64,000 nucleotides of DNA from Selaginella tamariscina (Eukaryota; Streptophyta; Lycopodiopsida; Selaginellales; Selaginellaceae), in NCBI GenBank assembly GCA_003024785.1, contig PUQB01000056.1, forward strand, positions 62,001 through 126,000, in the 5' to 3' direction. Made by a program: the position numbers and the translations under genes. Below the pieces are notes generated by a model, which saw only the letters and a program-made list of their open reading frames with translations, was not told the DNA's origin and ran no database searches. Positions 6,187-59,696 of the stretch are shown in pieces (the first letter of the stretch is position 1; every line of letters starts with the position of its first letter).

Positions 6187-8100
6187 TGTTAAACTTTTAA
6201 CTCAAAGGGTTAGCATGTGTTTGTTAGGTGGCCCATTGTGTCAATTCCCTGTGTGAGCAATGCCAAGTCTTTCAAAACAACCTTTAAAGCTTGAGTCTAC
6301 TGCACAAACAGGCACAAATCTTCTAGAATGACTATCCTCTAACTTTAAAGAATATCCGAGTAAACTTTAGAATCTTGCCCCAAAGGACTTAAACAAATTC
6401 ATGCTCCAACCCACTAAGGAAACATGCCTTGCCATGACAAAGCCAAGGCATCATAATGTACCCCTTAAGGAATCAAGTACAACACCTTTAGGGTAAGGAG
6501 TGCCCTAAACCACGATTAACCCTTTGATAGTCAAGTTATATCTTAGTTCTAGGGCTAGTACTTAGTGAGGACACGAGTGTGGACCGTAGTCAAACATGAG
6601 TGTTCTGCCAAGCAAACTAGGTTTGAATAACCCTAAGTACACAACCTCACAAGTGCTTCACAAAAGGGTTCCTATTAATAAGTTTAGGTTGTTTAACTCA
6701 TGGATCCTAAACAGAACACTTCCTAGCCAAGTGTGTCAATAGTACCCTAGTTACAAGACTTAAGCTCCCTTAAGCCGATGCCCAAGGCTTAGCACCCTAA
6801 TGTGAGCACAAGTACGCATGCTTATTAAAGTATCCAACCCCTCGGTGTTAACCACATAAGACAACCCTAAAAGGTGTGTATTAAGTGTTGTATTGTGTGC
6901 CATAATGTGAGCACAAGTACGCATGCTTACTAAAGTATCCAACCCCTCAGCGTTAACCACATGAGACAACCCTAAAAGGTGTGTATTAAGTGTTGTATTG
7001 TGTGCCATAACCCCTTATATTCAAGAGTTGCACTAGGTGTCACAAATGTAGTTCTCAAATGTTAACTTTAGAACCCCTTTGTACTCGCATCTACTCATGT
7101 CCTTCCTCCTAGAAGGTGCAACTAGAAGCGTTTTTACTCACTGTTGTATTGTGTGTCATAACCCCTTATATTCAAGAGTTGTGACACTTATTGTATTGTG
7201 TGCCATAACCCCTTATATTCAAGAGTTGCACTAGGTGTCACAAATGTAGTTTCTCAATGTCAACTTTAAAACCCCTTTGTACTCGCATCTACTCATGTCC
7301 TTCCTCCTAGAAGGTGCAACCAGAAGCATTTCTACTCACTCTTGTCCTTCCTCCTAGAAGGTGCAACCAAGGGTTTCTACTCACTCTTGACTCGCACCCA
7401 ACTCACCAACCAGAAGGGTTTCTACTCACTCTTGACTCGCACCTGTCCTTCCTCCTAGAAGGTGCAACAAGAAGGTTTCTACTCACTCTTGACTCGCACC
7501 CAACTCACCAACCAAAAGGGTTTCTACTCACTCTTGACTCACTCTTGACTCACACCCAACTCGCCAACCAAAAGGGTTTATACTCACTCTTGACTCGCAC
7601 CCAACTCGCCAACCAGAAGGGTTTCTACTCACTCTTGACTCACTCTTGACTCGCACCCAACTCGCCAACCAAAAGGGACTCTTGACTCGCACCCAACTCG
7701 CCGGCTGTACTCGCATTAGACTAGAGACAATCATAGAACTGATGAGAATCGAACCCATGACCACTTCGATACCAAATGTCACAACCTTTCCCTTTCCCCT
7801 TATGCCAACTAGGCAAAAAGCCAATTGGTGTTTATGAGAAGGCCCCTGGTCATGATGACTCAGGTCTGCTTGGGTCTTTTGCCCACATATCCCACAATCT
7901 TTACCCAGGTAGTCAACCAACTAGGTTAGAACTATGACATACCCTACCTTATTTATGTGACGTTGCCCCCCTCCCTCCCTCCCTCCTATATGTGTAAGTG
8001 GGTTGGCATGAAATGCCAGCCCCTTTGTTAAATGAAATGAGTTTTGATCTAACTAACTACCACTAAACCCTACCCGAGGGAGTGGGGATTTAGGACGTGG
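6187..8100 (-). mobile_element. degenerate LTR remnant, repeat family S, copy 2 (minus)
   Basis: The minus strand aligns with the family S repeats at 31,971-33,440 and 45,000-46,400. Examples are the equivalents of GATGCCTTGGCTTTGTC, TAGGGCATGAGC and the CTTATTTATGTGA stretch near 7,950. The left end reads TGTTAAAC. The right end is approximate. A direct duplication of about 105 bp (roughly 6,795-6,900 and 6,900-7,005) and the minisatellite at 7314-7700 expand the interior. No protein is encoded. Confidence 0.6.
7314..7700 (+). repeat. minisatellite, units of roughly 45 bp
   Basis: Units built from CTCGCACCCAACTCGCCAACC and AGAAGGGTTTCTACTCACTC recur about eight to ten times, with internal deletions and short duplications of ACTCACTCTTG. 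The array opens long chance frames on both strands that are not genes. Confidence 0.8.
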
Positions 8101-11894: not shown

Positions 11895-12868
11895 AATGAG
11901 AATTAAAAACCATAATGATATCTGTATTGACTCACACACATACATGTGTGTGTGTGTTAACCAATTGTTCATTGTTTATAAAATTCTACATTATAAATTG
12001 TATAATGCCTCGACTTTAAGGGATAATCATCTAACAAATTACTATTATATAATGATAATAATGCTTATGGGATAATCTTTACATGACTCAAAATTAATAC
12101 TAAATAAAAATAATATTTATCTTTAATATCTATTACACTTGTGTTATTAATATTGTTGTAGTTCTCTACTATCTACAATATTGGTGTGTTATCTAATTAA
12201 TTTTCTATTGGTTATATTATTTCTGTATTAGTTACTTAATTAATTTGATTTAACATTTTTATATTTATATTTAATTTAATTATTTTTATGTGATAAGTAT
12301 TATTTGAAAAGGTTAGATAGCCTGTCTGAAAGAATCTTATCCGTATGCATGACAGTTTATACTATAATATGAAAACTTTTAAAATGATCCTATTAAAATC
12401 CTTAGTATATTCCTCTTATTCGGTAAGTATAAAGTTCTATATACAAAAGCGTACGACGCGTGCATATATACGTATACTAGGCCCTTATTGTATTCCACAA
12501 AGGGTTAAAATTTAGTCCACGTCATTTAATTGATTATTAGGCATGTCATCCTTCGCCGTCGGATCTATAAAATACAGTTTTACACGAAATGTGATTCTAG
12601 AAACTATCTGGTCTAGGAAAGGGACGAAACAGTTTAGGATAGTGATATACAACCAAGGCATCTGCAATAAATATAATATACATATTAAAATAAAATACTA
12701 TCACGTTTCAAATTTGATAATAAGTCAATCTTTAATAATAAAAAAAAGAATTTTTTCTTAATCAATCACGCTTAATTCTATACTATATACATATGTTCAT
12801 AAGCTACTCTTGATTGTATCTATATGGTCAACATTGGAAGCTTCAGTCATCCCGCGTGGTGGAAGAAA
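11895..12868 (+). repeat. upstream flank of PSAT1 copy 1, duplicated at 49,940-50,640
   Basis: The segment shares AAAATGAGAATTAAAAACCA, an ACAC/TGTG palindrome, TTTATAAAATTCTACATTA, and later TTAAAATTTAGTCCACGTCA with the region before PSAT1 copy 2. Copy 2 lacks part of the middle. It is non-coding and presumably includes the distal promoter. Confidence 0.7.
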
Positions 12869-12953
12869 CCGTCGGAATATTCATAAGAATATTCCAGAAT
12901 ATGCACTGTATTTAAATGACAGGGGGAAAGAGGGTTTAGTACATATATGCGAG
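12869..12953 (+). promoter_or_regulatory. proximal promoter of PSAT1 copy 1 with a heat-shock element
   Basis: GAA at 12,887, TTC at 12,892 and GAA at 12,897 form a consensus three-unit heat-shock element, with another GAA/TTC pair at 12,875-12,882. A TATTTAAAT box lies at about 12,909-12,917, some 40 bases before the first ATG. In copy 2 the equivalent site (50,649-50,676) has a damaged middle unit (TTG instead of TTC). Heat regulation is inferred from the motif only. Confidence 0.5.
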
Positions 12954-15080
12954 ATGATGTGGTTAATTCGGTGTTTTCTGGTTCTTTATGTTATAAATCT
13001 GCAGCAGCGGCTGGAGTAGACGCCAGTCTGTGGCGTTCAGAAGAGCTAAGGAAGGTATCCGCGGTTATTATTCCAGGTTTTGCTTGTACCAGGCTTCGAT
13101 CCTGGTCGATTCTTGACTGTCCCTTCTCACCTCTGGATTTCAACCCTCTCGATCCTGTGTGGCTCGACATCAGGAAGGTAATCTCTCCAGTAATTAATTA
13201 TATACATATATTTTTCCTTCATAAAAATGGCATGTGAAAGTCTTAATCATCTAAAGGGAAATTTACATAAATACCCTCGAGTTTTTAATTATTAAGATTG
13301 GATCTATACCTCTAAACTTCAACGCACAATTTAATTAAACAAATGAAAGTCTACTTGTATATTATTTTGATTTGATATATATTATTTCTAAACTATGTTG
13401 AAGTTTTCCAAGGACAGGACTGTAAATATTTAAATTCAGGGGTAAATTTGTAATATCTGGAAAGTTGAGGTGTAAATTCTATTGTTATTATACTTAATAT
13501 GTCGTGCACGTTTTAAACGTATGTATATAACTCTAGTATAAGAATATGCTAGAATATACTTGATATTCTGTTTTTTTCCAGGTGCTTTCAGTGCCACAAT
13601 GCTGGATAAAATGTATGCATTTGGATCCCCTGAACCAGGACGATCATCCCGAATGCAAATCACGGCCTGACAGTGGCGTGGCTGCTGTCACAGAGCTCGA
13701 TCCTGGTTATATAACAGGTATATATAGTACTACACACGCGCACGCACACACGTAGATATATACGTATTTTGTTTCATTCAGGGCCACTTACATCAGTATG
13801 GAGAGCCTGGGTTGCATGGTGTGTGGAGTTTGGAGTCGAGCCAGAAGCTGTTGTAGCAGCACCTTATGATTGGAGATTAGCTGGACCTGTACTCGAAGAA
13901 CGAGATCTTTATTTCCACAGGCTCAGGTTCTCTCTCTCTCTCAACACACACACATGCACGCACACACACATGTATATGTAATAACAAAGATTTGTTGCAG
14001 GCTGACGTTTGAGACATGTAGGAAGCTAAGGGGAGGTCCAGCGTTAGTTTTTGCACATTCTTTAGGAAACAATGTGTTTAGGTACTTCCTTGAATGGTTG
14101 AAGCAAGAAATACCACCAAAGCATTACATTACTTGGCTCGATGATCACATTTACACATATCATGCAATAGGTATGTGTGTGTGTGCGCGTGCGTGTTCTC
14201 AGAGTGAGATTTTTGAAGGTGCACCATATCTGGGATCTCCAGAGACTTGAAAGCCATTTTTTCTGGGGCGACTTTTGGATTACCAATTTCAGAGGTGAGT
14301 TTAATTATCATTAGTTTATGTTTATCTAACTATAATTAAACTCAGGGTACAGCAAGGTTATGCTTGGAACATTCAGTGCGGTGCCTGGGATGTTACCTTT
14401 CTCGGAGAACTCCCATACTGTGGATGTAAGTTCATACTAAGTCCAATATAGATTGTATAGAAAAAGAATACGCGTCAGATTGGCCTGTGGATATCCTTGA
14501 GGTAGGCATGCCTGTGAGTCCCGGTATGTTTATATGTATATATAAATACATATACTTACTTAACTACTTATTATTCAGGAGACTGCTCACTAGTTCCTAT
14601 AGAAAAGGATGCACTTACCCGAGCACAAAAATCTTATTCTGCTGACAGAATATCGGATGGAACCATCTTTCAAGAGCTTGCAGAGTCGATCCTCAAGCAA
14701 AAACTTCACTTCATCAGCTGCAAAAGTACGTGTGTGCGTGTGAGTGTGTGTGTGTGTGTGTGTATGCATACAAAGTATACATTATAAACTTTACAATCGT
14801 ATAAATTAAAACTTAGTTAATCCTGTGAATGCAGATATTATATAAACAATTCGTTGTTTAATCCTTTGACACCATGGGAGCGTCCACCAATTAAGAATGT
14901 GTATTGTATGTATGGGATCAACTTAAAAACAGAGGTTAGATACTAATATGTGGTATGATTATTTCATTGACTAATATTTATCAGGTTGGTTATAAGTTTT
15001 CACCTAGTGGAAAACCATTCCCCGATAATTGGATCCTTAGTGATGTTATATATGAAAATGAAGGAAGTGTATTACAATCA

Positions 15081-15123
<43 letters not shown>

Positions 15124-15843
15124 GCAACTCACAAGAGTATCAGGTCGGGAGCTGAGGTTAATGGAAATCCCGGCGTTGTTAGTGGTGATGCCACAGTGAG
15201 TACCTGTATATATATATATATTATTAAACTTAGCAAAGAGTTAAATACTGTTAAATAAATATTAATTAATTCTTCACTTAGGTGCCTTACTATTCACTGT
15301 CATGGTGCAAGAGATGGCTAGGACCACGGGTGAACATCACAAGAGCTCCTCAGGTATATATACAATATATATATATTTATCTAATATATTATATATTAAC
15401 GAAGTGCACTATACATATAATATATAACGTTTTATATTAGTTTAACAAATACTTACTATATATATTGTTTCGTTAGGCTGCACACGATGGTTCCGACCTG
15501 CAAGAGTACTTAAACGTGGAACATGATGATGGCAAGGATATTGTTGCGAATTTCACACGGGAGAATCGAAACAAATACATTACATATTATGAAGATGGTG
15601 CTGGTTTAAACGGCCGTAAGACAGCAGTGTGGGAGTTTGATAAAAGTAAGATTAGAATTATAATTAAGTAATTAATATTTTTTTATTTTCTATTGATTTT
15701 TAGTTAGTTAATTTACTGACAAACTTGTTATGTTATAGTTGATCACCGGTCACTAGTTCAATCACCTGTGTTGCTGAGAGAGCTGTTGCTTGAAAACACC
15801 CACAGCTTACATTCTCATGCTACAAGAGACTTTGTTTCAAAAG

Positions 15844-15876
<33 letters not shown>

Positions 15877-16007
15877 TCATCATATTCATTATATGTGATA
15901 GCTCTAAGGAACCCCATGCGGGACGAGGATTGCTACTGGGATTATGCAAAGGCAAGATGTGGTCTTCTTGAATTCTGTGAATACAGGTAAACTCAAGATA
16001 TAAGGAC

Positions 16008-16076
<69 letters not shown>

Positions 16077-16175
16077 GTGATTATGGCATCTAGATACGTT
16101 TTTGGCGACGTTCACTTGGGACAGAGCTGCAGATTGAGGGCTTTAACTGATAAGCCCATCCTACATTACTTTTAA
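12954..16175 (+). CDS. PSAT1: phospholipid:sterol acyltransferase, copy 1, frame-broken
   Basis: PSAT1 moves an acyl chain from phospholipids to sterols at the endoplasmic reticulum; the family is LCAT/PDAT-like alpha/beta hydrolases. Fifteen exons can be placed by splice sites and by copy 2: 12954-13177, 13582-13717, 13782-13926, 14001-14170, 14219-14294, 14346-14523, 14579-14725, 14835-14934, 14985-15082, 15144-15195, 15282-15353, 15477-15645, 15739-15843, 15902-15986 and 16094-16175. Landmarks are a hydrophobic N-terminus (MMWLIRCFLVLYVI), IIPGFACTRLRSWSILDCP, the nucleophile serine in FAHSLGNNVF, the aspartate in SGDATVPYYSLS and the histidine in AAHDGSD. Copy-1-only losses are one A at 12,995-12,997 (exon 1), one T at 14,247 (exon 5, giving a stop), one plus two bases in exon 6, and one base in exon 7. 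Exons 8-15 are intact. The coding total is about 613 codons, close to the family length. Confidence 0.85.
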
Positions 16176-16243
16176 CCAAATTTTTTGTACAGTATTAGCC
16201 TGAAAGATAATACATTATATACTTCAAAGCCAGATCAACTGCA
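16176..16243 (+). other. 3' flank of PSAT1 copy 1 up to the duplication join
   Basis: The sequence after the stop codon matches that after copy 2 (TACAGTATTAGCCTGAAAGA, then AAGCCAGATCAACTGCACAT) and stops matching after GCACAT. This marks the right end of the duplicated unit. Confidence 0.75.
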
Positions 16244-16890
16244 CATGAATGCTGTTGTATATACAGCAAAACATGGCATGAATCACAGTCTATACAGAAG
16301 CTTCATTCTATCTGACTCATCAATTAATAGTGGAATAACCTATTATAAACATAGCATATTCTTATAGCAGATATCCTCATTTTGTCTAGCGTGGTTAAGG
16401 GCGGTATACAGAAGCTTCGTTCTGTCTGACCCATCAATCTATACATGGCATATTCTTATAGCAGAATAGTCTCATTTTGTCTACAGCGGTTTTAGGTTCC
16501 TATGATGAGGTGGCAGTTTGACGTATGCGAAACTCGAACATAAGTAGAAAGCTTCCATAATAGGCGTATATAAATAATAATGCTTATTTTTAATTTATTT
16601 TAAATTGTTATTTTTATGTTGAAGTGATTACACAAGTACACTAAACAGGATAAAGCACACATAACTATGCGTTAGAAACTGCAAAGAAGAAAAACTGACG
16701 GCTTTATCTTTTTACGATACGTCGTATTGCAAATAAAAACAGATCGTTTTATCCTTTTTAATTACGTCGTATTTTCTGATTTGTGCTTAAGCATAGAGTG
16801 CGTCTAATGTGCACGATACTCGCTGCTCTACACACTACCGTACAACTCAACGTACAGTCTTGTACAATGAAAATTAAAATCTATAAAAGA
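16244..16890 (+). repeat. right copy of the duplicated flank (pairs with 3,545-4,190)
   Basis: This is the start of the second duplicated unit. It follows 3,545-4,190 segment by segment, including the AAAATTAAAATCTAT end, with an extra copy of the ACAGAAGCTTC segment. It is non-coding. After 16,900 the sequence passes into retrotransposon remnants. Confidence 0.75.
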
Positions 16891-19250: not shown

Positions 19251-19775
19251 TGTCAAGCCACGATCCAGGAACCAGGAAGTGAGTAGGATTCCAAGAACAA
19301 GAAGGCTTGACTGAGAAACAGGACCGAGAGCAGGACAAGAACTAGGAATAAGACAGGAACAGGACGGATCCAGGAGCAGGACAGGATCATGATAGGATCC
19401 GGGAGCAAGACAGGAAAGTGCAGGACAGGATCCAGGAACAAGACAGGATCTAGGAGCAAGACAAGAACAGGAGGCAAGGAGTAAGACACGAACAAGAATG
19501 ATTGTAGAAAGACTGGTGTTGATAGTAATTGATTGTACAACAATTAGGTCGGAGCTTTTATGCTCACAACTCCAAGTTAATCTGGTCATGAGTCTAATCT
19601 AGTCATGAGCTAAGAATAGTGTCTCTTATCCTCTAGGCATATCCTGTAGCATATCCTATAGGCATATCCTATAGGTATATCCTGTAGGAATATCCTGTAA
19701 CCCATATCCTGTATCCGAAATCCTGCATTCTGTATCCTGTATTCGGAATCCTGTATCTTGTATCGGGTTATGACA
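19251..19775 (-). repeat. 3' LTR of element A
   Basis: The LTR is 525 bp. Its self-primer segment at 19,519-19,531 carries one substitution (TTGATAGTAATTG) relative to the other three LTRs, and the TATA box is TTTTAT at 19,556-19,561 (plus-strand reading). Two copies of the TCTAGTCATGAG-type U3 repeat are present, against three in the 5' LTR. Confidence 0.9.
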
Positions 19776-22700
19776 GCACCTCCTCCCTAAGGACGAGTTC
19801 CACGAGTCTTAGGACCTGGTTTAGCAGGATAATGCCGATGGAAGGCAGCAACTTTGGAAGAAGCATGGAGTAAGTTGGATGCAGGTTCCCAAGTGCGATC
19901 GGTAGGCAAATAACCTTTCCAATCCACCAAGTATTGAAGTTGGCGGCGATGAAGACGAGAATCAAGGATGGCTGCAACTTCGTACTCAGGTTCACCAGCA
20001 ATGACCACAGGAGGGGGAGGAGAAGAAGCACGACCAGGAAGAGAAGAAGGATGATACGGCTCCAACAAGGAGGTGTGAAACACAGGATGAAGTTTCACCG
20101 TGATGGTAACTCGAGTCGGAAAGCTACAGGATTACCTCCGCCACATCCTGTAAGGGCCCAATCGTTGAAAATCCAACTTAGAAGAAGGCCTGTTGGTGCG
20201 AATGTGTCGACGAAGAAGCCACACGAGATCACCAATCTTGTATGCAGGTGCCGGCTGACGGTGAGCATCAGCATGATGCTTGTATCGTTCCTGTGCCTGC
20301 TGAAGATGAACCCGGAGATCATCCTGTACCTGACGAAGATGCTGGAGACGATCCTGTACTGCAGGAGCGGAAGAAGGAGAAGCAGGAGGAGCAAAGTCAA
20401 AACGTGGATGGTGGCCTGTAAGAGCAAAGAAAGGTGTCTGGCCTGTAGATGCGTGAATGGAGTTGTTGTAGGCAAACTCCGCCATAGGAAGAAGGTCCAA
20501 CCAATTATCCTGTTGGTAACTGATGAAGCAGCGAAGATATTGCTCCAAGGTCTGAATTGTGCGTTCTGACTGCCATCAGTTTGCGGGTGATATCCTGAAG
20601 AAAGATCCGCTTTAACCTGTAGACTCCGGAGAAGCTCTCGCCAAAACTTGGACATGAATTGTGGACCTCGATCAGAAACAATGCTCTCAGGAAGACCATG
20701 GTGTCGGAACACTTCACGGATCACCAACTCAGCAGTTGTCTGGCCTGTAGCAGTCTTGTTACATGGTAGGAAATGAGCCTGTTTGGTGAAACGGTCAACC
20801 ACCACAAGAACTGCATCAAATCCGAGAAGGAGGAAGATCTGTGAGGAAATCCATAGAAATGGATCTCCAAGGAGCAGAAGGAACAGGAAGAGGACGAAGA
20901 AGACCAGAGGGTGCATGACGAGGCATCTTCGACCTGTTGCAGGTGTCACAACTCCGTACAAACCTTTCCACAAAACCTCGCAACCCAGGCCACCAATAGT
21001 TGCGAGTCACCAACTCAACTGTCTTGGCCACACCAAAATGTCCTGTAGCCGGGGTATCATGACAATCCTGTACCACACGAGTCCTGCAAACACAACAGGA
21101 ACGTACAGGAGACCTTCCCGGTACAGGAGTCCGTCCTGTATGGCAAACAGCGTGTAGTCTGAACGGGAACTGGAGGAAGAGGAACTTGCAATGTCAGGAC
21201 AATGTGTGAGAACACATTCCTTGCCAAGTCGTCTGTAGCCAACTGCGAACGGATGTCCTGTAGAAGTGTTGAATCTGCTGGAGCCTGATGAACCTGTAGT
21301 GCCGCAAGCCGAATCGATCAGGACCCAACAACACTTGCTTTGACAGTCATATGCAGGATCGCCCGGGACGGTGCAAGGTAAGAGCGCCTAGACAATGCGT
21401 CCGCCTTGCCATTCCGAAAACCGGGCCTGTAGACAATGACGAAATCAAAACGTGATAGGAACTCCGCCCACCTAGCCTGTCGCGACTGAGAACTCGAGCC
21501 GTTTGAAAATACTCCAGGTTCTTGTGATCCGTAAGAACTTGTACAGGATGCGCAGCACCTTCCAGGAAATGCCGCCACTCCTCGAACGAATCCACAATGG
21601 CCTTGAGTTCCTTGTCATGAATCTCGTAATTGATCTCCGCCGAAAGGAACTTACGAGAGTGAAAAGCTACAGGATGAAGCAACTTGTCTTCTCCAACTTG
21701 TGATAGGACGGATCCTACTGCAAAATCCGAGGCATCTGCTTCAACGAAGAAAGGACGAAAGGATCAGGATGTGCTAAAATCGGAGCTGTCGTGAAGGTGT
21801 CCTTGAGTGTTGTGAATGCATGTTCCGCCTTGTCGGACCAAGAGAAAACCTCTGTGCGCTTGGTGAGTTCCGTGAGTGGAAGTACACGCTTGGAGAAGTC
21901 CTGTATGAACCGCCTGTAGAAGTTTGCAAAGCCAAGGAAACATTGTACATCTCGTACAGACTTGGGCCTCTCCCACTCCACGATGGTCTTCACCTTGTGC
22001 ATGTCCATGGAAACGCCAGCAGAGAGACGATGTAGCCCAAGAACTCCACAGAATCCCTATCGAAAAACACTTCTCCAACTTCGCATACAGGCCATGCTCG
22101 CGAAGCCGCTGTAGAACTAATCGTACATGCTTGTCATGTGCCGCCTGGTCCTTGGAGAAAATCAAAATGTCGTCGAGGTAGATCACCACAAACTGGTCCA
22201 AGAAGTCACGAAAGATGTCGTTCACCATGTGTTGGAACACGGCTGGGGCATTGGTAAGGCCGAAAGGCATCACCGTGTACTCGAAGTGTCCATACCTTGT
22301 ACGAAAGGCAGTCTTCCACTCATCGCCTGGACGAATCCGTACAAGGTTGTAGGCCCCTCGTAAGTCGATCTTCGTGAACACCTTTGCTCCTCGCAGCCGA
22401 TCGAGAAGTTCCGGGATCAATGGCAACGGGTACCGATTCCGAATGGTGACTTGATTCAAACCCCTGTAGTCCACAACCAAACGTAAACTCCCATCCTTCT
22501 TCTTGACAAAGAAGAATAGGCGCTCCTGCAGGGGACTTTGAGTGACGAATGAAGCCGGATGCCAAGTTGTCCTCGATGTACTGACGAAGAACCTCCAACT
22601 CTGTGGGTGACAATGCATAAATCGGTCCGAACGGTGGAGTCTTTCCTTCCGCAAGATCAATAGGACAGTCGTAGGACCTGTGAACAGGAAGAACTGCAGC

Positions 22701-23758
22701 CTTGTGCTTGTCAAAAACGTCCTTAAAGTCGTGGTACTTGGATGGTAGGAAGAAGGAGGAGAAGGAAAAGGAGAGAAGGAGATTGAAAAACAGGAGAGTC
22801 AGACACAGGAAAGGTAGAAGAGGACGTAGGAGTTACTTGAAAGGCAAAAAGGTGGAAAGGAGCAGGATCAGTGGCAAGTTCATGCATGGTAGTGGTAAGA
22901 ACTCGGAGAGGAGAAGGAGGGAGCTGTGACTGAAAAAGAGGAAGGATCTTGGGGGGTGGAACAAAAGCAGAGTAACAAAAGAGGCAGGATTGGGAGAAAC
23001 CTGTGTGGATGTTGACGAGTGTACAGGATTGGAAGAATCCTGTACAGAAGTCCGTGGTTGCACAGGAGTGAGGGAGCCTGTGAGTGTGCTGACGAACCAA
23101 CAGGAGGTGGATCCTGTTGAGGAGGAACCTTCGACACTGATACAGGATTGGAAGAACCCTGTACAGGAACCGCAAACTTACAGGAGTGGAGAAAGCCTGC
23201 GGATGTGCTGAGGAACTGACATGAGGTGAATCCTGTCGAGGAGAGTCTTCAACACTGGTACAGGAACAGGCACGGTCAATCCTGTAGCTTGTACTGCCTC
23301 AGACACCAAGGATGTATCCTGCACGCAGGAAGGTACAGGATTGATCCTGGCTGCTGAGAGGAAAACGTGAGCGTCCTAGACCTCCAGTCGATCTGCGGAT
23401 TTGCAACAACGAACCATGGCATGCCAAAAATGATGGGAGTCGACCGAGTCTTGATCAAGTTGAAGGAAATCGAACAGTTGAATGCGCCATGACTGCAAGA
23501 GAGAGGTGTGGTAGCGTGGGTAACTGCGCCAGAAGCAATCAAACGACCATCGGCCACCTCTACAGGAACTGCACGCTTCAACTTCACCACCGGAATGCCA
23601 TGCTGAGCTGCAAAAGTGTCATCCATGAAACATGCATTTGCACCAGTGTCTAACAGGGCAAACTCCTTGAGCTCTCGATTATTGAGGCGAATGTGTACAG
23701 GAAACTTGAGTGATGGAATGGTATGAGCAGCACCAATGGAGCCTGCACCTACGTCCAA
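19776..23758 (-). pseudogene. pol of element A (protease, RT, RNase H, integrase, chromodomain)
   Basis: Protease is at about 23,276-23,758 with ALLDTGANACF (DTG triad). A Pro/Ser-rich linker lies at 22.8-23.25 kb. Reverse transcriptase is at about 21.9-22.6 kb with [17 protein letters not shown] and the catalytic [14 protein letters not shown]. RNase H is at about 21.35-21.75 kb, and integrase at about 20.1-21.2 kb, including the zinc-binding part (CDTCNRSK), FLTDLPPS, DRFTKQAHFLPCNKT and [14 protein letters not shown]. The C-terminal chromodomain is at 19,787-20,098 with YLVDWKGYLPTDRTWEP. The frame ends in TAG at 19,787-19,789, inside the polypurine tract. Numerous indels break the frame. 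Confidence 0.85.
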
Positions 23759-24278
23759 CTTCGCGGCTCCTAGACGAAGTGGACATTGAAGTTTTCCGAC
23801 TGAACTTCAGCTTCGGCTTCACGCGTCTTGAACTTTCTGGCTTTATTAGGACATTCCGCCACCTTGTGTCCTGCTTCACCACAATACAAGCATAGGTTCT
23901 CACCCCGACGACGTTGCTTCTCAGCAGTTGAAAGTGGGCCACGCTTGGATTGTTAACCTCCATAGGAACTGCTCCAGAAGGTGTCGTAGGAACATGTGCT
24001 ACGGCTACAGGATTGGCTGGCAGGAACTGCTGACGGAATTTTTCCTGACGGCGCTCGAACAAACGGTTGTCGCAGCGAACGGCCTGTTGCATGATCTCCG
24101 CTAACGTTTGAGCATCCGGTAATGTAAGGAGAAGGTCCTTCACATCATCCCTCAGCCCAAAACGGAAGTGTTCGATCAATGCAGTCTCGTCCCATGGAAT
24201 GTTCGTGCACAATTGCTGAATTCGGATGCATAAACGGAAGCTGGTCTGGATCCTTGTGTGAGCTTCGTAACTTCGTGC
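23679..24278 (-). pseudogene. C-terminal part of gag, element A
   Basis: The minus strand encodes the gag segment NIPWDETALIEHFRFGLRDD and the leucine-rich LLLTLPDAQTLAEIMQQAV that follows, then a damaged nucleocapsid. It ends abruptly at 24,278 where element B is inserted; the missing N-terminal part resumes at 30,576. The zinc-knuckle region here is frame-disturbed. Confidence 0.85.
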
Positions 24279-24907
24279 TGTCAAGCCACGATCCAGGAAC
24301 CAGGAAGAGAACAGGATTCCAAGGACATGAAGGCTTGACTCAGGAACAGGACCGAGAGCAGGACAGGAACTAGGAATAGGAACAGGACGGATCTAGGAGC
24401 AAGACAGGATCAGGATAGGATCCGGGAGCAAGACAGGAAAGCACAGGATAGGATCCGGGAGCAAAAGGAACAGGACAGGATCCCGGAGCAGGACAGGATC
24501 CAGGAACAGGACAGGAAATAGGAGCGAGACAGGAACAAGACAGGAACAAGACAAGACAAGATTGATCGTAGTAAGACTGGTGTTGATAGTAACTGATTGT
24601 ACAACAATTAGGTCGGAGCTTTTATGCTCACAACTCCAAGAGCTAATCTAGGCATGCATGCAAAAGTGGTTGCATGCATGCAAAAGTGATTGCATGCATG
24701 CAGAGGCTAAGATGAGTCCACATGTCCCTTATCCTCTAGGCATATCCTGTAGGAATATCCTGCAACCGAATCCTGTGTCCGGAATCCTGGTAGGAATATC
24801 CTGTAGGAAAATCCTGCAACCCATATCCTGTATCCGGAATCCTGTAGGAAAGTCCTGCAACCCATGTCCTGTATCCGGAATCCTGTATTCTGTATCGGGT
24901 CGTGACA
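24279..24907 (-). repeat. 3' LTR of element B
   Basis: The LTR is 629 bp. On the plus strand the self-primer segment TTGATAGTAACTG is at 24,583-24,595, the TATA box (TTTTAT) is at 24,620-24,625, and three RY-type repeats lie at 24,652-24,702. The rest of the LTR on either side is a dense array of CAGGA/TCCTG-containing short repeats. Confidence 0.92.
24652..24702 (-). promoter_or_regulatory. RY-element repeats in the U3 of element B
   Basis: TGCATGCATGCA or GCATGCATGCA occurs three times, spaced by AAAAGTG-type linkers, about 30-80 bp upstream of the TATA box in the element's direction. CATGCATG is the RY/Sph motif bound by plant B3 factors of the ABI3/FUS3/LEC2 group. The 5' LTR has two units (about 30,343-30,373). 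Confidence 0.6.
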
Positions 24908-27900
24908 GCACCTCCTCCCTAAAGACGAGTTCCACGAGTCTTGGGACCTGGTTTAGCAGGATAATGCCGATGGAAGGCAGCAACCTTGGAAGAAGCATGG
25001 AGTAAGTTGGATGCAGGTTCCCAAGTGCGATCAGTAGGCAGGTACCTTTCCAATCCACCAAGTATTGGAGTTGGTGACGATGAAGACGAGAGTCAAGGAT
25101 GGCTGCACTTCGTACTCAGGTTCCGTGTCAATGACCACAGGAGGGGGAGGAGAAGAAACACGACCGGAAGAGAAGAAGGATGATACGGCTCCAACAAAGA
25201 GGTGTGAAACACAGGATGAAGTTTCACCGTGGATGGTAACTCGAGTCGGAAAGCTACAGGATTTACCTCCGCCACGATCCTATAAGGGCCCAATCGTTGA
25301 AAATCCAACTTAGAAGAAGGCCTGTTGGTGCGAATGTGTCGACGAAGAAGCCACACGAGATCACCAATCTTGTATGCAGGTGCCGGCTGACGGTGAGCAT
25401 CAGCATGATGCTTGTATCGTTCCTGTGCCTGTTGAAGATGAACCTGGAGATCATCCTGTACCTGCCGAAGATGCTGAAGACGATCCTGTACTGCAGGAGC
25501 GGAAGAAGGAGAAGCGGGAGGAGCAAAGTCAAAACGTGGATGGTGGCCTGTAAGAGCAAAGAAAGGTGTCTGTCCTGTAGATGCGTGATGGAGTTGTTGT
25601 AGGCAAACTCCGCCATTGGAAGGAGGTCCAACCAGTTGTCCTGCTGGTAACTGATGAAGCAACGAAGATACTGTTCTAAGGTCTGAATTGTGCGTTCGGA
25701 CTGCCCATCGGTTTGTGGGTGATATCCTGAAGAAAGATCCGCTTTACCTGTAGACTCCGAAGAAGCTCTCGCCAAAACTTGGACATGAATTGTGGACCTC
25801 GATCGGAAACAATGCTCTCAGGAAGACCATGATGTCGGAACACCTCGCGGATCACCAACTCGGCAGTTGTCTGACCTGTAGCTGTCTTGTTGCAGGGTAG
25901 GAAATGAGCCTGCTTGGTGAAACGGTCAACCACCACAAGAACTGCATCAAATCCACGAGAAGGAGGAAGATCTGTGAGGAAATCCATAGAAATGGATCTC
26001 CAAGGAGCAGAAGGAACAGGAAGAGGACGAAGAAGACCAGAGGGTGCATGATGAGGCATCTTCGACCTGCTACAAGTGTCACAACTCCGTACAAACCTCT
26101 CCACAAAACCTCGCAACCCAGGCCACCAATAGTTGCGAGTCACCAACTCCACTGTCTTGGCCACACCAAAATGTCCTGTAGCCGGGGTATCATGACAATC
26201 CTGTACCACACGAGTCCTGGAAATACCAACAGGAACGTACAGGAGACCTTCCCGGTACAGGAGTCCATCCTGTATGGTGAACAGGTTGTAGTCTGGACGG
26301 GAACTGGAGGAAGAGGAACTTGCAACGTCAGGATGAATGTGTGAGAACACATTCTTTGCCAAGTCGTCTGTAGCCAACTGCGAACGGACGTCCTGTAGGA
26401 GTGTTGAATTTGCTGGAGCCTGATGAACCTGCAGTGCCGCAAGCCGGAAACGATCAGGACCCAACAACACTTGCCTTTGACAGTCAAATGCAGGATCGCC
26501 CGGGCTTGGTGCAAGGTAAGAGCGCCTAGACAATGCGTCCGCCTTGCCATTCCGAAAGCCGGGCCTGTAGACGATGATGACGTCAAAACGTGATAGGAAC
26601 TCTGCCCACCTAGCCTGTCGCCGACTGAGACCCGAGCCGTTTGAAAGTACTCCAGGTTCTTGTGATCCGTAAGAACTTGTACAGGATGTGCAGCACCTTC
26701 CAGGAAATGCCGCCACTCCTCAAACGAATCCACAATGGCCTTGAGTTCCTTGTCATGAATCTCGTAGTTGATCTCCGCCGACAGGAACTTACGAGAGTGA
26801 AAAGCTACAGGATGAAGCAACTTGTCCTCTCCAACTTGCGATAGGACGGATCCTACTGCAAAATCCGAGGCATCTGCTTCAATGAAGAAAGGATGAGAAG
26901 GGTCAGGATGTGCTAAAATCGGAGCTGTCGTGAAAACGTCCTTGAGTGTTGTGAATGCGTGTTCCGCCTTGTCGGACCAAGAGAAAAGTCCTGTGCGCTT
27001 GGTGAGTTCTGTGAGTGGAAGTACACGCTTGGAGAAGTCCTGTATGAACCGCCTGTAGAAGTTTGCAAAGCCAAGGAAACATTGTACATCTCGTACCGAC
27101 TTGGGCCTCTCCCACTCCACGATGGTCTTCACCTTGTGCATGTCCATGGAAACGCCAGCAGGAGAGACGATGTAGCCCAAGAACTCCACCGAATCCCTAT
27201 CGAAAAAACACTTCTCCAACTTCGCGTACAGGCCATGCTCGCGAAGCCGCTCTAAAACTAGTCGTACATGCTTGTCATGTGCCGCCTGGTCCTTGGAGAA
27301 AATCAAGATGTCGTCGAGGTAGATCACCACAAACTGGTCCAAGAAGTCACGGAAAATGTCGTTCACCATGTGTTGGAACAGCTGGGGCATTGGTAAGGCC
27401 GAAAGGCATTACCGTGTACTCAAAATGTCCATACCTTGTACGAAAGGCAGTCTTCCACTCATCGCCGGGACGAATCCGTACAAGGTTGTAGGCCCTCGTA
27501 AGTCGATCTTCGTGAACACCTTTGCTCCTCGCAGCCGATCGAGAAGTTCCGGGATCAATGGCAACGGGTACCGATTCCGAATGGTGACTTGATTCAAACC
27601 CCTGTAGTCCACAACCAAACGTAAACTCCCATCCTTCTTCTTGACAAAGAAGATAGGAGCTCCTGCAGGGGACTTTGAGTGACGAATGAAGCCGGATGCC
27701 AAGTTGTCCTCGATGTACTGACGAAGAACCTCCAACTTCTGTGGGTGACAATGCATAAATCGGTCCGAATGGTGGAGTCTTTCCTTCCGCAAGATCAATA
27801 GGACAGTCGTAGGACCTGTGAACAGGAAGAACTGCAGCCTTGTGCTTGTCAAAAACGTCCTTAAAGTCGTGGTACTTGGATGGTAGGGAAGAAGGAGAGA

Positions 27901-28896
27901 GGAGAAGGAGAAGGAGAAGGAGAAAAAACAGGGGAGTCGGATACAGGAAAGGTAGAAGAGGACGTAGGAGTTACTTGAAAGGCAAAAAGGTGGAAGGGAG
28001 CAGGATCAGTGGCGAGTTCATGCATGGTAGTGGTAAGAACTCGGAGAGGAGAAGGAGGGAGCTGTGACTGAAAAAGAGGAAGGATCTTGGGGGATGGAAC
28101 AGAAGCAGGGTAACAGAAAGAAGCAGGATTGGAAAAAACCTGTGGGGTTGATGAGTGTACAGGATTGGAAGAATCCTGTACAGGAGTCCGTGGTTGCGCA
28201 AGAGTGGAAGAAGCCTGCGAATGTGCTGACGAATCAACAGGAGGTGGATCCTGTTGAGGAGGAACCTTCGACACTGATACAGGATTGGAAGAACCCTGTA
28301 CAGGACACCGCAAACTTACAGGAGTGGAGAGAGCCTGCGGATGTGCTGAGGAACTGATATGAGGTGAATCCTGTCGAGGAGGAGTCTTCAACACTGGTAC
28401 AGGAACAGGCACGGTCAATCCTGTAGCTTGTACTGCCTCAGATACTAAGGATGTATCCTGCACAGGAAGGTACAGGATTGATCCTAGCTGTTGGAGAGGA
28501 AAACGTGAGCGTCCTAGACCTCCAGTCGATCTGCGGATTTGCAACAACGAACCATGGCATGCCCAAAATGATGGGAGTCGACCGAGTCTTGATCAAGTTG
28601 AAGGAAATTGAACAGTTGAATGTGCCATACCTGCAGGAGAGAGGTTCGGTAGCATGGGTAACTGCACCAGAAGCAATTAGACGCCCATCGGCCACCTCTA
28701 CAGGAACTGCACGCTTCAACTTCACCACCGAAATGCCATGTTGAGTTGCAAACGTGTCATCCATGAAGCATGCATTTGCACCAGTGTCTAACAAGGCAAA
28801 CTCCATGAGCTCTCGATTATTAAGATGAATGTGTACAGGAAACTTAAGTGATGGGATGGTATGAGCAGCACCAATGGAGCCTGCACCTACGTCCAA
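24908..28896 (-). pseudogene. pol of element B (protease, RT, RNase H, integrase, chromodomain)
   Basis: Protease is at 28,438-28,896 with ALLDTGANACFMDD. RT is at about 26.9-27.75 kb with [26 protein letters not shown] and [12 protein letters not shown], and RNase H at about 26.6-26.9 kb with [18 protein letters not shown] and the [20 protein letters not shown] segment. Integrase is at about 25.4-26.5 kb, with [42 protein letters not shown] and [11 protein letters not shown]. The chromodomain is at about 24.93-25.13 kb. The frame ends in TAG at 24,919-24,921 within the polypurine tract. Several indels shift the frame; because the element is otherwise young, some may be sequencing errors. Confidence 0.88.
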
Positions 28897-28907
28897 CTTC
28901 GCGGCTC

Positions 28908-29884
28908 CTAGACGAAGTGGACATTGGAGTTTTCCGACTGAACTTCAGCTTCAACTTCACGCGTCTTGAAGTTCCTGGCTTTAATAGGACAATCTGCCAC
29001 CTTGTGTCCTGCTCCACCACAATACAAGCACAGGTTCTCACTGCGACGACGTTGCTTCTCAGCAGCGGAAAGAGAGCCACGCTTGGATTTCTCAACCTCC
29101 ATAGGAACTACTCCAGAAGGTGGTGCAGGAACATGTACCACAGCTGCAGGATTGGTTTGCAGGAACTGTTGACGGGATCTTTCCTGACGACGCTCGAACA
29201 AACGGTTGTCGCAACGAACAGCTTGTTGCATGATCTCCGCTAATGTTTGGGCATCCGGTAACGTAAGGAGAAGGTCCTTCACGTCGTCCCTCAACCCAAA
29301 ACGGAAGTGTTCGATCAATGCAGTCTCGTCCCATGGAATGTTCGTGCAAAGTTGCTGAAATTCGGATGCATAGACGGAAGCTGGTCGGGATCCTTGAGTG
29401 AGCTTCCGTAACTTCGTGCATGCAGAACGGTACTTATCAGGATCTCCAAAACAGGCTTCAAAGGCAGCCACGAAACCTTCAAAGTCTTCCATCAATGGAT
29501 CGTCACGCTCCAGCAAGGGGGCAACCCAAGCCCGTGGAGATCCACTTAGTAAGGATGCCAAAAGACCCACCTTTTGAGCATCAGTCGAGTAGCGCCGTGG
29601 TTGCATACGGATCAAGAGCCGGATCTGATTCAGGAAACCTTGGAAATCGGCACGATTACCACTGAACTTCTCTGGCATGCTAACCTTCGGCTCCGAAGAA
29701 AAGTTTGATGAAGAGGGAACCACCGATGCCTGGGAGAGAGCCTGCGCAGCAGCCTTGGAGGATGCATCAGCAGCTGCATGTGCCGCAGTGGTGGAACCTT
29801 GCAGGTCGGTGACCACTTGGCGCAAAGTGGCCAGCTCATGAAGTAGCATTTGGTGCTCGTGTTGAAACGCTCAAAATCAGCCAT
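28908..29884 (-). pseudogene. gag of element B
   Basis: The start ATG is at 29,884 (MADFERF), followed after one frameshift near 29,850 by HELATLRQVVTDLQG, an alanine-rich segment, VSMPEKFSGNRADFQGFLNQ, the gag core, and a CX2CX4HX4C zinc knuckle (CLYCGGAGHKVADC). The product would be the capsid-nucleocapsid polyprotein. It lies upstream of the protease in a different frame and probably belongs to one gag-pol unit. Codons upstream of the ATG form the short leader between the LTR and gag. Confidence 0.88.
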
Positions 29885-29961
29885 GATCTAGGAAAGAAAA
29901 AAGGAGGAAAATGAAGGAAAGAATCAAGAAAAAGGTAGCTGGAAAACGGAGAACTATGAAG

Positions 29962-29976
29962 CAGTTACTATCAAAC
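29962..29976 (-). promoter_or_regulatory. noncanonical primer-binding region of element B
   Basis: The 13-nt segment CAGTTACTATCAA (plus strand, 29,962-29,974) lies 2 nt inside the 5' LTR. In the element's sense it reads TTGATAGTAACTG and does not begin with TGG, so it cannot pair with the CCA end of a tRNA. It is the exact reverse complement of the segment at the predicted transcript start in its own LTR (30,274-30,286). Confidence 0.75.
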
Positions 29977-30575
29977 TGTCAAGCCACGATCCAGGAACCA
30001 GGAAGGAACAGGATTCCAAGGACAGGAAGGCTTGACTCAGGAACAGGACCGAGAGCAGGACAGGAACTAGGAATAGGAACAGGACGGATCTAGGAGCAAG
30101 ACAGGATCAGGATAGGATCCGGGAGCAAGACAGGAAAGCAGGATAGGATCCGGAGCAAAAGGACAGGACAGGATCCCGGAGCAGGACAGGATCCAGGACA
30201 GGACAGGAAAAGGAGCGAGACAGGAACAGACAGGAAACAAGACAAGACAAGATTGATCGTAGTAAGACTGGTGTTGATAGTAACTGATTGTACAACAATT
30301 AGGTCGGAGCTTTTATGCTCACAACTCCAAGAGCTAATCTAGGCATGCATGCAAAAGTGTTGCATGCATGCAGAGGCTAAGATGAGTCCACATGTCCCTT
30401 ATCCTCTAGGCATATCCTGTAGGAATATCCTGCAACCGAATCCTGTGTCCGGAATCCTGGTAGGATATCCTGTAGGAAAATCCTGCAACCCATATCCTGT
30501 ATCCGGAATCCTGTAGGAAAGTCCTGCAACCCATGTCCTGTATCCGGAATCCTGTATTCTGTATCGGTCGTGACA
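29977..30575 (-). repeat. 5' LTR of element B
   Basis: The LTR is 599 bp. The TATA box (sense ATAAAA) is at 30,311-30,316 and the self-primer segment is at 30,274-30,286, with its 5' edge 30 bp from the first base of the TATA box. Two RY repeats lie upstream of the TATA box at about 30,343-30,373. Confidence 0.92.
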
Positions 30576-31045
30576 CGTGCATGCAGAACGGTACTTATCG
30601 GGATCTCCAAAACAAGCTTCAAAGGCAGCCACGAAACCTTCAAAGTCTTCCACCAATGGGTTGTCACACTCCAGAAAGGGAGCAACCCAAGCCCGTGGAG
30701 ATCCACTTAGTAAGGATGCCAAAAGGCCAACCTTTTGTGCATCCGTCGAGTAGCGACGTGGTTGCATGCGGATCAAGAGTCGGATCTGATTCAGGAAACC
30801 TTGGAAATCGGTGGATTGCCACTGAACTTTTCTGGCATGCTGATCTTCGGCTCCGAAGAAAAGTTCGATGGAGAGGAAACCACCGATGCTTGAGAGAGAG
30901 CCTGTGCAGCAGCCTTGGAGGATGCGTCAGTAGCTGCATGCGCCGCGTTGGTGGAACCTTGCAGATCCGTGACCACTTGGCGCAAGGTGGCCAGCTCGTG
31001 AAATAACATTTGGTGCTCGCGTTGAAAGTGCTCAAAATCGGCCAT
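30576..31045 (-). pseudogene. N-terminal part of gag, element A
   Basis: The start ATG is at 31,045 (MADFEHFQREHQ), followed by the coiled, alanine-rich N-terminus and ISMPEKFSGN. After a frameshift near 30,810 it continues into MQPRRYSTDAQKVGLLASLL and stops at the insertion site of B (30,576). Sequence identity with the equivalent part of element B (29,420-29,884) is high. Confidence 0.85.
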
Positions 31046-31130
31046 GATCTATGAAAAGAAAAACAAAAAGGAAAATGAAGGAAGAAAACCAAGGAAAAAA
31101 AAGTAACTAGGAATCGGAGAGCTATGGAAG

Positions 31131-31145
31131 CAGTTACTATCAAAC
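31131..31145 (-). promoter_or_regulatory. noncanonical primer-binding region of element A
   Basis: CAGTTACTATCAA at 31,131-31,143 is identical to the segment in element B and sits at the same 2-nt distance from the 5' LTR. Its partner in the 5' LTR is at 31,415-31,427. Confidence 0.72.
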
Positions 31146-31713
31146 TGTCAAGCCACGATCCAGAACCAAGAAGTGAACAGGATTCCAAGAACAGGAAGGC
31201 TTGACTTAGGAACAGGATCGAGAGCAGGACAGAACAGGACGGATCCAGGAGCAGGAAAAGATCAGGATAGGATCCGGGAGCAAGATAGGAAAGTGCAGGA
31301 AAGGATTCAGGAACAAGATAAGAACAAGACAGAATCCAGAAGCAAGAAAGAGCAGGAGGCAAGGAGTAAGACACGAACAAGACAAGAACAAGAATGATCG
31401 TAGAAAGACTGGTGTTGATAGTAACTGATTGTACAACAATTAGGTCGGAGCTTTTATGCTCACAACTCCAAGCTAATCTGGTCATGAATCTAATCTAGTC
31501 ATGAGTCTAATCTAGTCATGAGCTAAGAATAGTGTCCCTTATCCTCTAGGCATATCCTGTAGCCATATCTATAGGCATATCCTATAGGAATATCCTATAG
31601 GTATATCCTGTAGGAATATCCTGCAGGCATATCCTGTAACCCGTACCTGTATCCGAAATCCTGCATCCTGTATCCTGTATCCGGAATCCTGTATCCTGTA
31701 TCGGGTTGTGACA
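31146..31713 (-). repeat. 5' LTR of element A
   Basis: The LTR is 568 bp. The TATA box TTTTAT (plus strand) is at 31,452-31,457, the self-primer partner at 31,415-31,427, and three TCTAGTCATGA-type repeats at about 31,475-31,525 take the place of the RY repeats of element B. Confidence 0.9.
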
Positions 31714-49930: not shown

Positions 49931-50734
49931 AAAAAAAGGAACAAAATGAGAATTAAAAACCATAATGATAATTTGTATTAACTCACACACACACACGCGT
50001 GTGTGTGTGATAACAATTGTGCATTGTTTATAAAATTCTACATTATAAATTATATAATGCCTTTACTTAAGGGATAATCATCTAGTTATATAATAATACT
50101 AATAATAAAAGATTTTATTATTTATCAGAGGTAAAGTTGCTCACCAAACTTGTTAAAGAAGGAATTAATGTATTATAGTGGAATTAAAATAAGCCTCATT
50201 TATGTGGAAATCAATAATAATAATAATAATAATAATGTTAATGTTTTTACATTTGTTATAGTTTTCTCTTATGATAAATACACTAACTTTCTATTAATAT
50301 ACTTAGTATATTCCTTGCTATAGAATGCATATTATAATAACAGTGTACACTGCGTTTTGTGGTGTTTGGTTTTACTAAAATGCCAGTTTAACAAAGAGTT
50401 AAAATTTAGTCCACGTCATTTAATAAAAACTATCTGGTGAACATCAACGAAAATCTTTAGGATAGCGATATACAAACCGAGGCATCTACAATAAATAATA
50501 TACATATACAAACAAAATACTGTCACGTTTTCAAATTTGATAATAAGTCAATCTTTAATAAAAAAAATTTAATCAATCACTATATACATATATTCATAAG
50601 CTACTCTTGATTGTACTATATGGTCAACATCGGGTGGAAGAAACGTTTGAATATTCACATGAATATTGTAGAATATCCACTGTATTTAAATGACCATGGA
50701 TGAGGGGGAAGAGGGTTTAGTACATATATGCGTG
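49931..50734 (+). promoter_or_regulatory. upstream flank of PSAT1 copy 2
   Basis: It aligns with 11,895-12,953. The damaged heat-shock-like element at 50,649-50,676 (GAA..TTC....GAA..TTG..GAA) and a TATTTAAAT box at about 50,685 correspond to the copy 1 promoter. A GATCATGG-like insertion (CCATGGATGAGG) lies between the TATA box and the ATG. Confidence 0.55.
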
Positions 50735-51745
50735 ATGATGTGGTTAATACGGTGTTTTCTGGTTCTTTATGTTATAAAATCTGCAGCAGCGGCTGGAGTA
50801 GACGCCAGTCTGTGGCGTTCAGAAGGCTAAGGAAGGTAACCGCTGTTATTTCCAGGTTTTGCTTGTACCAGGCTTCGATCCTGGTCGATTCTTGACTGTC
50901 CCTTCTCACCTCTGGATTTCAACCCTCTCGATCCTGTGTGGCTCGACATCAGGAAGGTAATCTCTCCATTAATTATATATATATATATATATATATTTAT
51001 TTATTTATTTTCTTCATGTGAATAGTTGACTAGATAACATGTTTCTTATACACGGATAAGTTCCGGAAAGTCTTAATGTTAAGATTGGATCTCTGCCTTC
51101 ACTAAACTTCAACGCACAATTTTGATTAAACAAATAGAAATGCTGACCAGTTTATTTTGTATATTATTTAGATCTGATATATTTTATTCTAAACTGTGTT
51201 GAAGTTTTCCCAAGGACAGGACTATAAAGTTTAAGAAACTTGAGGTGTTATTAATATTGTAAATTCTATTGTTACTATACTGAATATGTCGATTTCAGTT
51301 TATTAGTGTGATGTTACTCACGTTTTAAACGTATGTATACGGTATCTGGTATAAGAATATACTTGATATTCTTTTCTCCAGGTTCTTTCAGTTCAACAAT
51401 GCTGGGTAAAATGTGTGCATTTGGATCCTCTGAACCAGAACGATCATCCCGAATGCAAATCACGGCCTGACAGTGGCGTGGCTGCTATCACAGAGCTCGA
51501 TCCTGGTTATATAACAGGTATATATATTGTACTATATAGCGCACACACACACACACGTAGATACCTACGTATATTTGTTTCCTTTGTCAATGTCAGGGCC
51601 ACTTACATCAGTATGGAGAGCCTGGGTTGCATGGTGTGGGAGTTTGGAGTCGAGCCAGAAGCTGTTGTAGCAGCACCTTATGACTGGAGATTGGCTGGAC
51701 CTGTACTCGAAGAACGAGATCTTTATTTCCACAGGCTCAGGTTCT

Positions 51746-51786
<41 letters not shown>

Positions 51787-52966
51787 CACACACACACACA
51801 CACAACGCACGCACGCACACATGTATATGTAATAACAAGGATTTGTTGCAGGCTGACGTTCGAGACATGTAGGAAGCTAAGGGGAGGTCCAGCGTTAGTT
51901 TTTGCACATTCTTTAGGAAACAATGTGTTTAGGTACTTCCTTGAATGGTTGAAGCAAGAAATAGCACCAAAGCATTACATTACTTGGCTCGATGATCACA
52001 TTTACACATATCATGCAATAGGTACGTACGCGCGTGTGTGTGTGTGAATTATATACTCACAGTGAGATTTTTGAAGGTGCACCATATCTGGGATCTCCAG
52101 AGACTTTGAAAGCCATTCTTTCTGGGGCGACTTTTGGATTACCAATGTCAGAGGTACGTAAGCTGAGTTTAATTATCATTAGTTTATGTTTATCTAACTA
52201 TAATTAAACTCAGGGTGCAGCACGGATTATGCTTGGAACATTCAGTGCTGTGCCTGGGATGTTACCTTTCTCGGAGAGCTCCCATACTGTGGATGTAAGT
52301 TCACATACTAAGTCCAATATAGATTGTATAGAAAAAGAATATGCTCCTGGTTGGCCTGTGGATATCCTTGAGGTAGGCATGCCTGTGAGTCCCGGTATGT
52401 TTATATGTATATATAAATACATATACTTACTTAACTACTTATTATTCAGGAGACTGCTCTACTAGTGTTCCTATAGAAAAGGATGCACTTACCCGAGCAC
52501 AAAAATCCTATTCTGCTGACAGAATATCGGATGGAACCATCTTTCAAGAGCTTGCGGAAGTCGATCCTCAAGCAAAAACTTCACTTCATCAGCTGCAAAA
52601 GTACGTGTGTGCGTGTGAGTGTGTGTGTGTGTGTGTTATGCATACAAAGTATACATTATAAACTTTACAATCGTATAAATTAAAACTTAGTTAATCCTGT
52701 GAATGCAGATATTATATAAACAATTCGTTGTTTAATCCTTTGACACCATGGGAGCGTCCACCAATTAAGAATGTGTATTGTATGTATGGGATCAACTTAA
52801 AAACAGAGGTTAGATACTAATATGTGGTATGATTATTTCATTGACTAATATTTTATCAAATTTATAACAGGTTGGTTATAAGTTTTCACCTAGTGGAAAA
52901 CCATTCCCCGATAATTGGATCCTTAGTGATGTTATATATGAAAATGAAGGAAGTGTATTACAATCA

Positions 52967-53003
<37 letters not shown>

Positions 53004-53919: not shown

Positions 53920-53966
<47 letters not shown>

Positions 53967-59665: not shown

Positions 59666-59696
<31 letters not shown>

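Follow-up and report, generated by a model that had tools for sequence, protein, structure and literature searches.

Probable self-priming of reverse transcription in an abundant chromodomain Ty3/gypsy retrotransposon family of Selaginella tamariscina

Introduction

How does a long terminal repeat (LTR) retrotransposon begin minus-strand DNA synthesis when the region inside its 5′ LTR does not resemble a binding site for a transfer RNA (tRNA)? The question is raised by element B, which occupies positions 24279-30575 of a 64,000-nucleotide (nt) stretch of Selaginella tamariscina DNA (assembly GCA_003024785.1, contig PUQB01000056.1, positions 62,001 to 126,000), referred to here as the window. 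Two members of one LTR retrotransposon family, one nested in the other, lie on the minus strand of the window: B sits within the gag of element A (19251-31713), and all element features given below are on that strand. B very probably belongs, as a broken copy, to a very abundant chromodomain Ty3/gypsy family in which minus-strand DNA is self-primed, as in Tf1 of fission yeast. Self-priming is well supported by the sequence, namely by the paired segments, their position, their pairing in predicted folds, their conservation and a matched double change among genomic copies; from these we infer the start site, cleavage, priming and copying described below.

The first-pass annotation of the window had proposed self-priming for B and implied that this was new in plants. 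The proposal itself is supported by the 13-nt pair, the covariation and the folds; the novelty is not, since Neumann et al. (2019, PMC6317226; citations here and below refer to the accessible parts of each paper) had predicted self-priming in 12% of the plant LTR elements they examined. Most of the moss and club-moss Tcn1 chromovirus clade falls in that set, as does the Ty1/copia TAR lineage. Self-priming in plant chromoviruses is already known as a prediction, and B belongs to a known kind. No experimental test, and no covariation, of self-priming in plants was reported in the titles and abstract openings listed by a literature search that left most subscription journals outside its reach.

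Primer and binding site in elements A and B

On the sense strand the 5′ LTR of B is followed by GT, then TTGATAGTAACTG, then CTTC. The putative primer binding site (PBS), TTGATAGTAACTG at 29962-29974, thus lies 2 nt inside the LTR. Its exact 13-nt complement, CAGTTACTATCAA, is found in both LTRs of B. The copy in the 5′ LTR (30274-30286) is the putative self-primer and RNA 5′ end, which would begin at C 30286 or, preferably, at A 30285, the preference resting on pair counts across the genome copies; the copy in the 3′ LTR is at 24583-24595. A TATA-like ATAAAA is located upstream of each (30311-30316 and 24620-24625). ATAAAAG begins at LTR position 260 in the 5′ LTR and 283 in the 3′ LTR, and the primer at 290 and 313, respectively, a distance of 30 nt from the first base of the box in both. 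Within 100 nt past the LTR each element has a single TGG, at nt 94 (B) or nt 55 (A).

The same arrangement is present in element A, with a binding site identical to that of B (31131-31143), an exact self-primer in the 5′ LTR (31415-31427) and a self-primer with one mismatch, CAATTACTATCAA, in the 3′ LTR (19519-19531). In each LTR of the window the primer lies 30 nt past the TATA box, and one of these four carries the primer mismatch. At up to two mismatches the 13-mer has seven matches in the window, five of them exact, and all five lie inside A and B. The features on which the first-pass annotation had relied (the site at a 2-nt gap, no TGG nearby, the exact complement in both LTRs and its spacing from ATAAAA in each LTR of B) were all recovered.

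The likelihood of such a complement was assessed with 5000 dinucleotide shuffles of each 5′ LTR, taking the longest complement that starts 0-5 nt past the LTR. The maximum was 11 nt (one shuffle for B, five for A) against the 13 nt observed in both elements; with 0 of 5000 shuffles per element reaching 13, a chance match of primer and site is rejected. The 5′ LTRs of A and B are 84% identical overall and share an identical run of 68 nt, which begins upstream of the TATA box, ends shortly after the primer and is equalled by none of 20000 column shuffles. Among 19 leaders the length from primer to site varies from 244 to 373 nt; the TATA box, primer and site are nearly fixed.

Covariation among genomic copies

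The genome holding the window (300.7 Mb) contains thousands of related stretches, with 17497 first-look candidates for the reverse transcriptase (RT) of B. A pattern around the site, allowing up to three mismatches, gave 2518+2650 matches compared with 515+532 in a reversed control. Among 100 matches listed, all of them mismatch-free, a count by eye gave 92 TTGATAGTAACTG, four TTGATTGTAACTG, three TTGATAATAACTG and one TTGATATTAACTG. Primer and site were read in four sets of places: all 40 scored DNA matches to the site and LTR end of B (L001-L040, L006 being the window with A and B); copies chosen from 149 RT matches, mostly for long frames (L072-L091, L088 being the same copy as L008); places from the 15 top RT matches of a second RT subgroup, approximately 94-97% identical to B in pol (L107-L120, one region being nonexistent); and the eight of the 100 listed matches whose site is changed at the positions allowed to vary (L121-L128). 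Both segments are readable at 79 distinct places, a count that includes A and B and leaves L107, L121 and L123 outside; the TATA pattern of L114 differs from the search pattern, and its primer was read separately.

Primer and site are fully complementary at 69 of the 79 places (67 of 77 outside A and B), 63 with the pair CAGTTACTATCAA/TTGATAGTAACTG and six with CAGTTACAATCAA/TTGATTGTAACTG; ten places mismatch. The copies chosen mostly for long frames have the original pair in 20 of 20. The second pair is a matched change, T to A in the LTR together with A to T in the site, seen at the six fully complementary places and at two more that differ at the last pair alone. Several 5′ ends of the second subgroup carry the primer CAGTTACAATCAA with the site TTGATTGTAACT. 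When places were picked by the site TTGATTGTAACTG alone, all four carried the changed primer CAGTTACAATCAA; one of them (C44) had already been found as a near match to L115 and three were new. Covariation of the two 13-nt segments, whose absence the first-pass annotation had named as refuting its proposal, is present. A tRNA-type site in related copies, also named there as refuting, appeared at none of the 79 readable places, a set limited by having been chosen by similarity or by the site; each of these places has the 13-mer or a close variant of it.

The matched double change could also reflect shared descent, or gene conversion with drift, rather than compensation. This explanation, which concerns the covariation and not self-priming itself, is unlikely in our view. 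The relatedness of the carriers and the existence of uncompensated places speak for it, and these and the further points given next count against the self-priming reading. The leaders of the carriers are 83-100% identical, so that the matched change may have arisen once and been passed on among related copies. Within the helix, pairing is broken at four places: L118 has a deletion in the LTR, L119 a changed LTR and an unchanged site, L124 a changed site and an unchanged LTR, and L122 a changed site together with a change of the outermost LTR base. The leader of L119 (C935:58900-60050) is 99.6% identical to that of L115, yet its primer is new and its site old; site and primer therefore do not always move together, and the following of one by the other is not absolute. 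L119 is a possible intermediate. L121 and L123 have a changed site and no LTR primer in the stretch examined, and L107 has neither. In addition, the places are a non-random set, and the site scan let three of the 13 site positions vary, so that sites changed elsewhere would escape it.

Against shared descent stands the closeness of the association. The changed primer CAGTTACAATCAA occurs in nine places, eight of them with the changed site, and all eight places with a TTGATTG site have the changed primer. A 341-nt stretch of L115 holding both changed sites gives the full 616 bits at 15 of 40 scored places, L115 itself included; the changed pair has probably multiplied recently, because these 15 places are identical over 341 nt. 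The other changed sites among the listed matches (three TTGATAA, one TTGATAT) are readable at two of the four, both of them uncompensated.

As further matched pairs, TTGATAATAACTG and TTGATATTAACTG are unsupported, both readable places (L122 and L124) lacking the compensating change.

Six of the ten mismatching places (L010, L022, L023, L040, L113 and L114) differ at the outermost pair alone. L022 (C956), L023 (C787) and L040 (C19) are identical over 587-588 nt and have a site without the last G, giving a 12-nt match; two of them are at contig ends, and the three are perhaps one insertion seen three times. The six places may represent as few as three events. Since the outermost pair is lost more often than any other, these copies suggest an RNA start at A30285, preceded by the pyrimidine C30286, and a primer of 12 nt.

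Predicted folds of the leader RNA

Folds were predicted for RNA begun at the primer in B, A and the variant L115, each with 100 shuffles. The minimum-energy fold pairs all 13 primer nt with the site in B, A and L115 (z -2.3, -4.1 and -3.1, respectively); one shuffle in 100 folds as well for B, and none for A or L115. In all of 19 leaders truncated at the site, the site pairs with 12 or 13 nt of the primer. This result is one of consistency and not proof, as near-perfect complements at both ends of a leader favour such pairing.

Beside the binding site, a stem is predicted between GTCAAGCC (30029-30036) and GGCTTGAC, near the LTR end (29978-29985). Of 18 leaders containing the arm, seven form the stem in the minimum-energy fold; B is one of the seven and A is not. 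Immediately before the site, pairing with U5 exceeds that of most shuffles (4 of 200 are as good for B and 1 of 200 for A), the U5 partner in A differing from that in B. The region after the site shows no clear pairing with U5 (8 to 38 of 200 shuffles as good). A full three-duplex fold of the Tf1 type finds no clear support: the central duplex is predicted, the upstream stem appears in only 7/18 folds and the downstream duplex was not found, and the last two points count against the self-priming reading.

The covariation and the folds argue for pairing rather than for priming as such. Long-range pairing at the 5′ end serves RNA packaging or translation control in other retroelements, and for this reason we considered that the two segments of B pair for such a purpose and that something else primes. 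The geometry makes this highly improbable: the site has the position required of a primer site, 2 nt from the LTR end, the 3′ end of the primer faces the LTR, and no other primer site is seen. Relatives of like anatomy are, moreover, reported or predicted to self-prime (PMC6317226 and the Tf1 papers cited below). Priming by a tRNA or half-tRNA, with the LTR match as chance or a by-product of another function, has a precedent in the half-molecule tRNA primers of plant Ty1/copia groups (PMC6317226) and is very unlikely here, given a complement longer than in any shuffle, its fixed distance from the TATA box in the four LTRs of the window (one with a mismatch) and a site that covaries with the LTR, with which a tRNA would not change; for the sole tRNA compared, initiator tRNA-Met, the longest complement to the site is 5 nt, and priming by it is rejected on that comparison.

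Proposed mechanism

Self-priming in B can be pictured as follows. The RNA would begin within the LTR, roughly 30 nt past the TATA box and most likely at A30285 (or C30286), and its first 12-13 nt would fold back onto the site just inside the 5′ LTR. The ribonuclease H (RNase H) of the element would then cut after ...ATCAA, and synthesis from the new 3′ end would proceed across GT into U5. Plus-strand synthesis copies the tRNA in other retroelements; in this family it would copy the primer, such that the site of each new copy is rewritten from the RNA 5′ end and tracks changes in the LTR.

A further consequence is proposed tentatively, as a conjecture that we hold to be rather less probable than its opposite. 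If the site is rewritten from the RNA 5′ end at each transposition, the thousands of genomic copies would form a record of the transcription start, with 12- and 13-nt sites recording A and C starts, and the changed pair would be one LTR mutation transferred to the site within one cycle. This suggests a way of reading a transcription start from genomic copies by sequence only. As the family is abundant, includes copies with long open frames and offers a natural matched change, the mechanism is open to testing in a plant.

Structure of the nested elements and other features of the window

The LTRs of B are 599 bp (5′, TGTCAC...TTGACA, 29977-30575) and 629 bp (3′, 24279-24907) in length and 98.0% identical over ungapped columns. 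Short repeats around CAGGATCC/TCCTG abound in both. The element is flanked by a 5-bp target duplication, CGTGC (24274-24278 and 30576-30580), and a purine-rich tract read from the sequence, AGGGAGGAGGTGC (24908-24920), adjoins the 3′ LTR. The LTRs of A are 568 bp (5′, 31146-31713) and 525 bp (3′, 19251-19775) with 93.6% identity over ungapped columns, which indicates that A is the older element; it is flanked by a 4-bp match, CTTA, rather than 5 bp. The insertion of B interrupts the gag of this older member of its own family.

Both elements are broken by frame changes. The domains of B (Pfam) comprise gag (Retrotrans_gag/Ty3_capsid, 28908-29849), an aspartyl protease (28438-28896), RT and RNase H (26140-27852), integrase with an H2C2 zinc finger and rve core (25676-26716) and a C-terminal SH3_Tf2-1 domain of the integrase (25093-25662). 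The RT-RNase H region is split over two frames, 27409-27852 and 26140-27390, which marks B as a broken copy. In pol, RVT_1 and RT_RNaseH are upstream of Integrase_H2C2 and rve, placing RT-RNase H before integrase. The chromodomain (PF00385, E 1.3e-14) is found in element A at 19832-19984 (coordinates derived by hand); the corresponding stretch of B is frame-shifted. Several copies elsewhere in the genome keep open frames of approximately 1361 amino acids, which suggests recent activity of the family. Two scans of viral contigs found no relatives.

Outside the two elements, an open frame at 59606-60115 on the minus strand is the start of DPH1 (diphthamide synthesis), the nearest named match being from Closterium at 70% (candidate proteins were 0.55-1.75 times the fragment length); simple repeats follow this frame. 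Within the sequence itself, a plant host is indicated by this one gene fragment and by the type of element. Two stretches of about 3.7 kb, 12624-16246 and 50447-54169, are 82-94% identical and about 38 kb apart, and are perhaps a duplicated gene; the open frame 51367-52044 resembles a plant lipid acyltransferase. Short direct repeats of about 100 bp lie in tandem at 7334-7702.

Comparison with known self-priming elements

The family of B bears marks of the plant Tcn1 clade, to which it may belong. In the RT tree (115 rows, none labelled Tcn1, Tf1 or seed plant) B groups with six unnamed database proteins, and the organisms visible among the 120 RT matches listed are frog, fungi and Closterium. 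The chromodomain of A reads EYEV...YLVDWKGY and, judged by eye rather than by formal alignment, fits the group I residues Y24, W45 and Y48 named in PMC3350952, a mark of the Tcn1 and Tf1/sushi group.

Among plant elements with predicted self-priming, the Ty1/copia TAR lineage (Houba, Osr-1; PMC6317226) belongs to another superfamily. RLG1 of Physcomitrium patens (PMC7466625) is a chromodomain gypsy family that dominates the moss genome and has young, transcribed copies; it is likened to B by description, and chromovirus, PBS and transcription start are terms absent from the accessible text. A Tcn1-type element that, like B, has no tRNA site is SM-Tcn1 of Selaginella moellendorffii (Novikova et al. 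2010, PMC2864245); its authors, in the accessible parts of the paper, report no evidence of self-priming, whereas the sequence evidence in B is clear. The plant Tcn1 clade as described in PMC6317226 is close in kind, its members being, like B, chromodomain Ty3/gypsy elements without a tRNA site. The rule used there, that the LTR contain a complement of 10 nt or more to sequence beginning 0-5 nt past the 5′ LTR, also describes B; the prediction was made by similarity search, and the parts consulted contain neither start sites nor covariation.

A further parallel is Tf1 of Schizosaccharomyces pombe, of the Tf1/sushi group, in which the first 11 nt of the RNA are complementary to the site (PMC7175516, PMC10085805, PMC4600332). 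The third duplex of the Tf1 'pretzel' was not found in the predicted folds of B. The predicted GTCAAGCC/GGCTTGAC stem of B resembles the PBS-adjacent duplexes (U5-IR stem) of that structure (PMC10085805). Pairing of the RNA 5′ end and a duplex beside the site are common to Tf1 and the predicted folds of B, the predicted pairing in B comprising 12-13 nt and the host being a plant.

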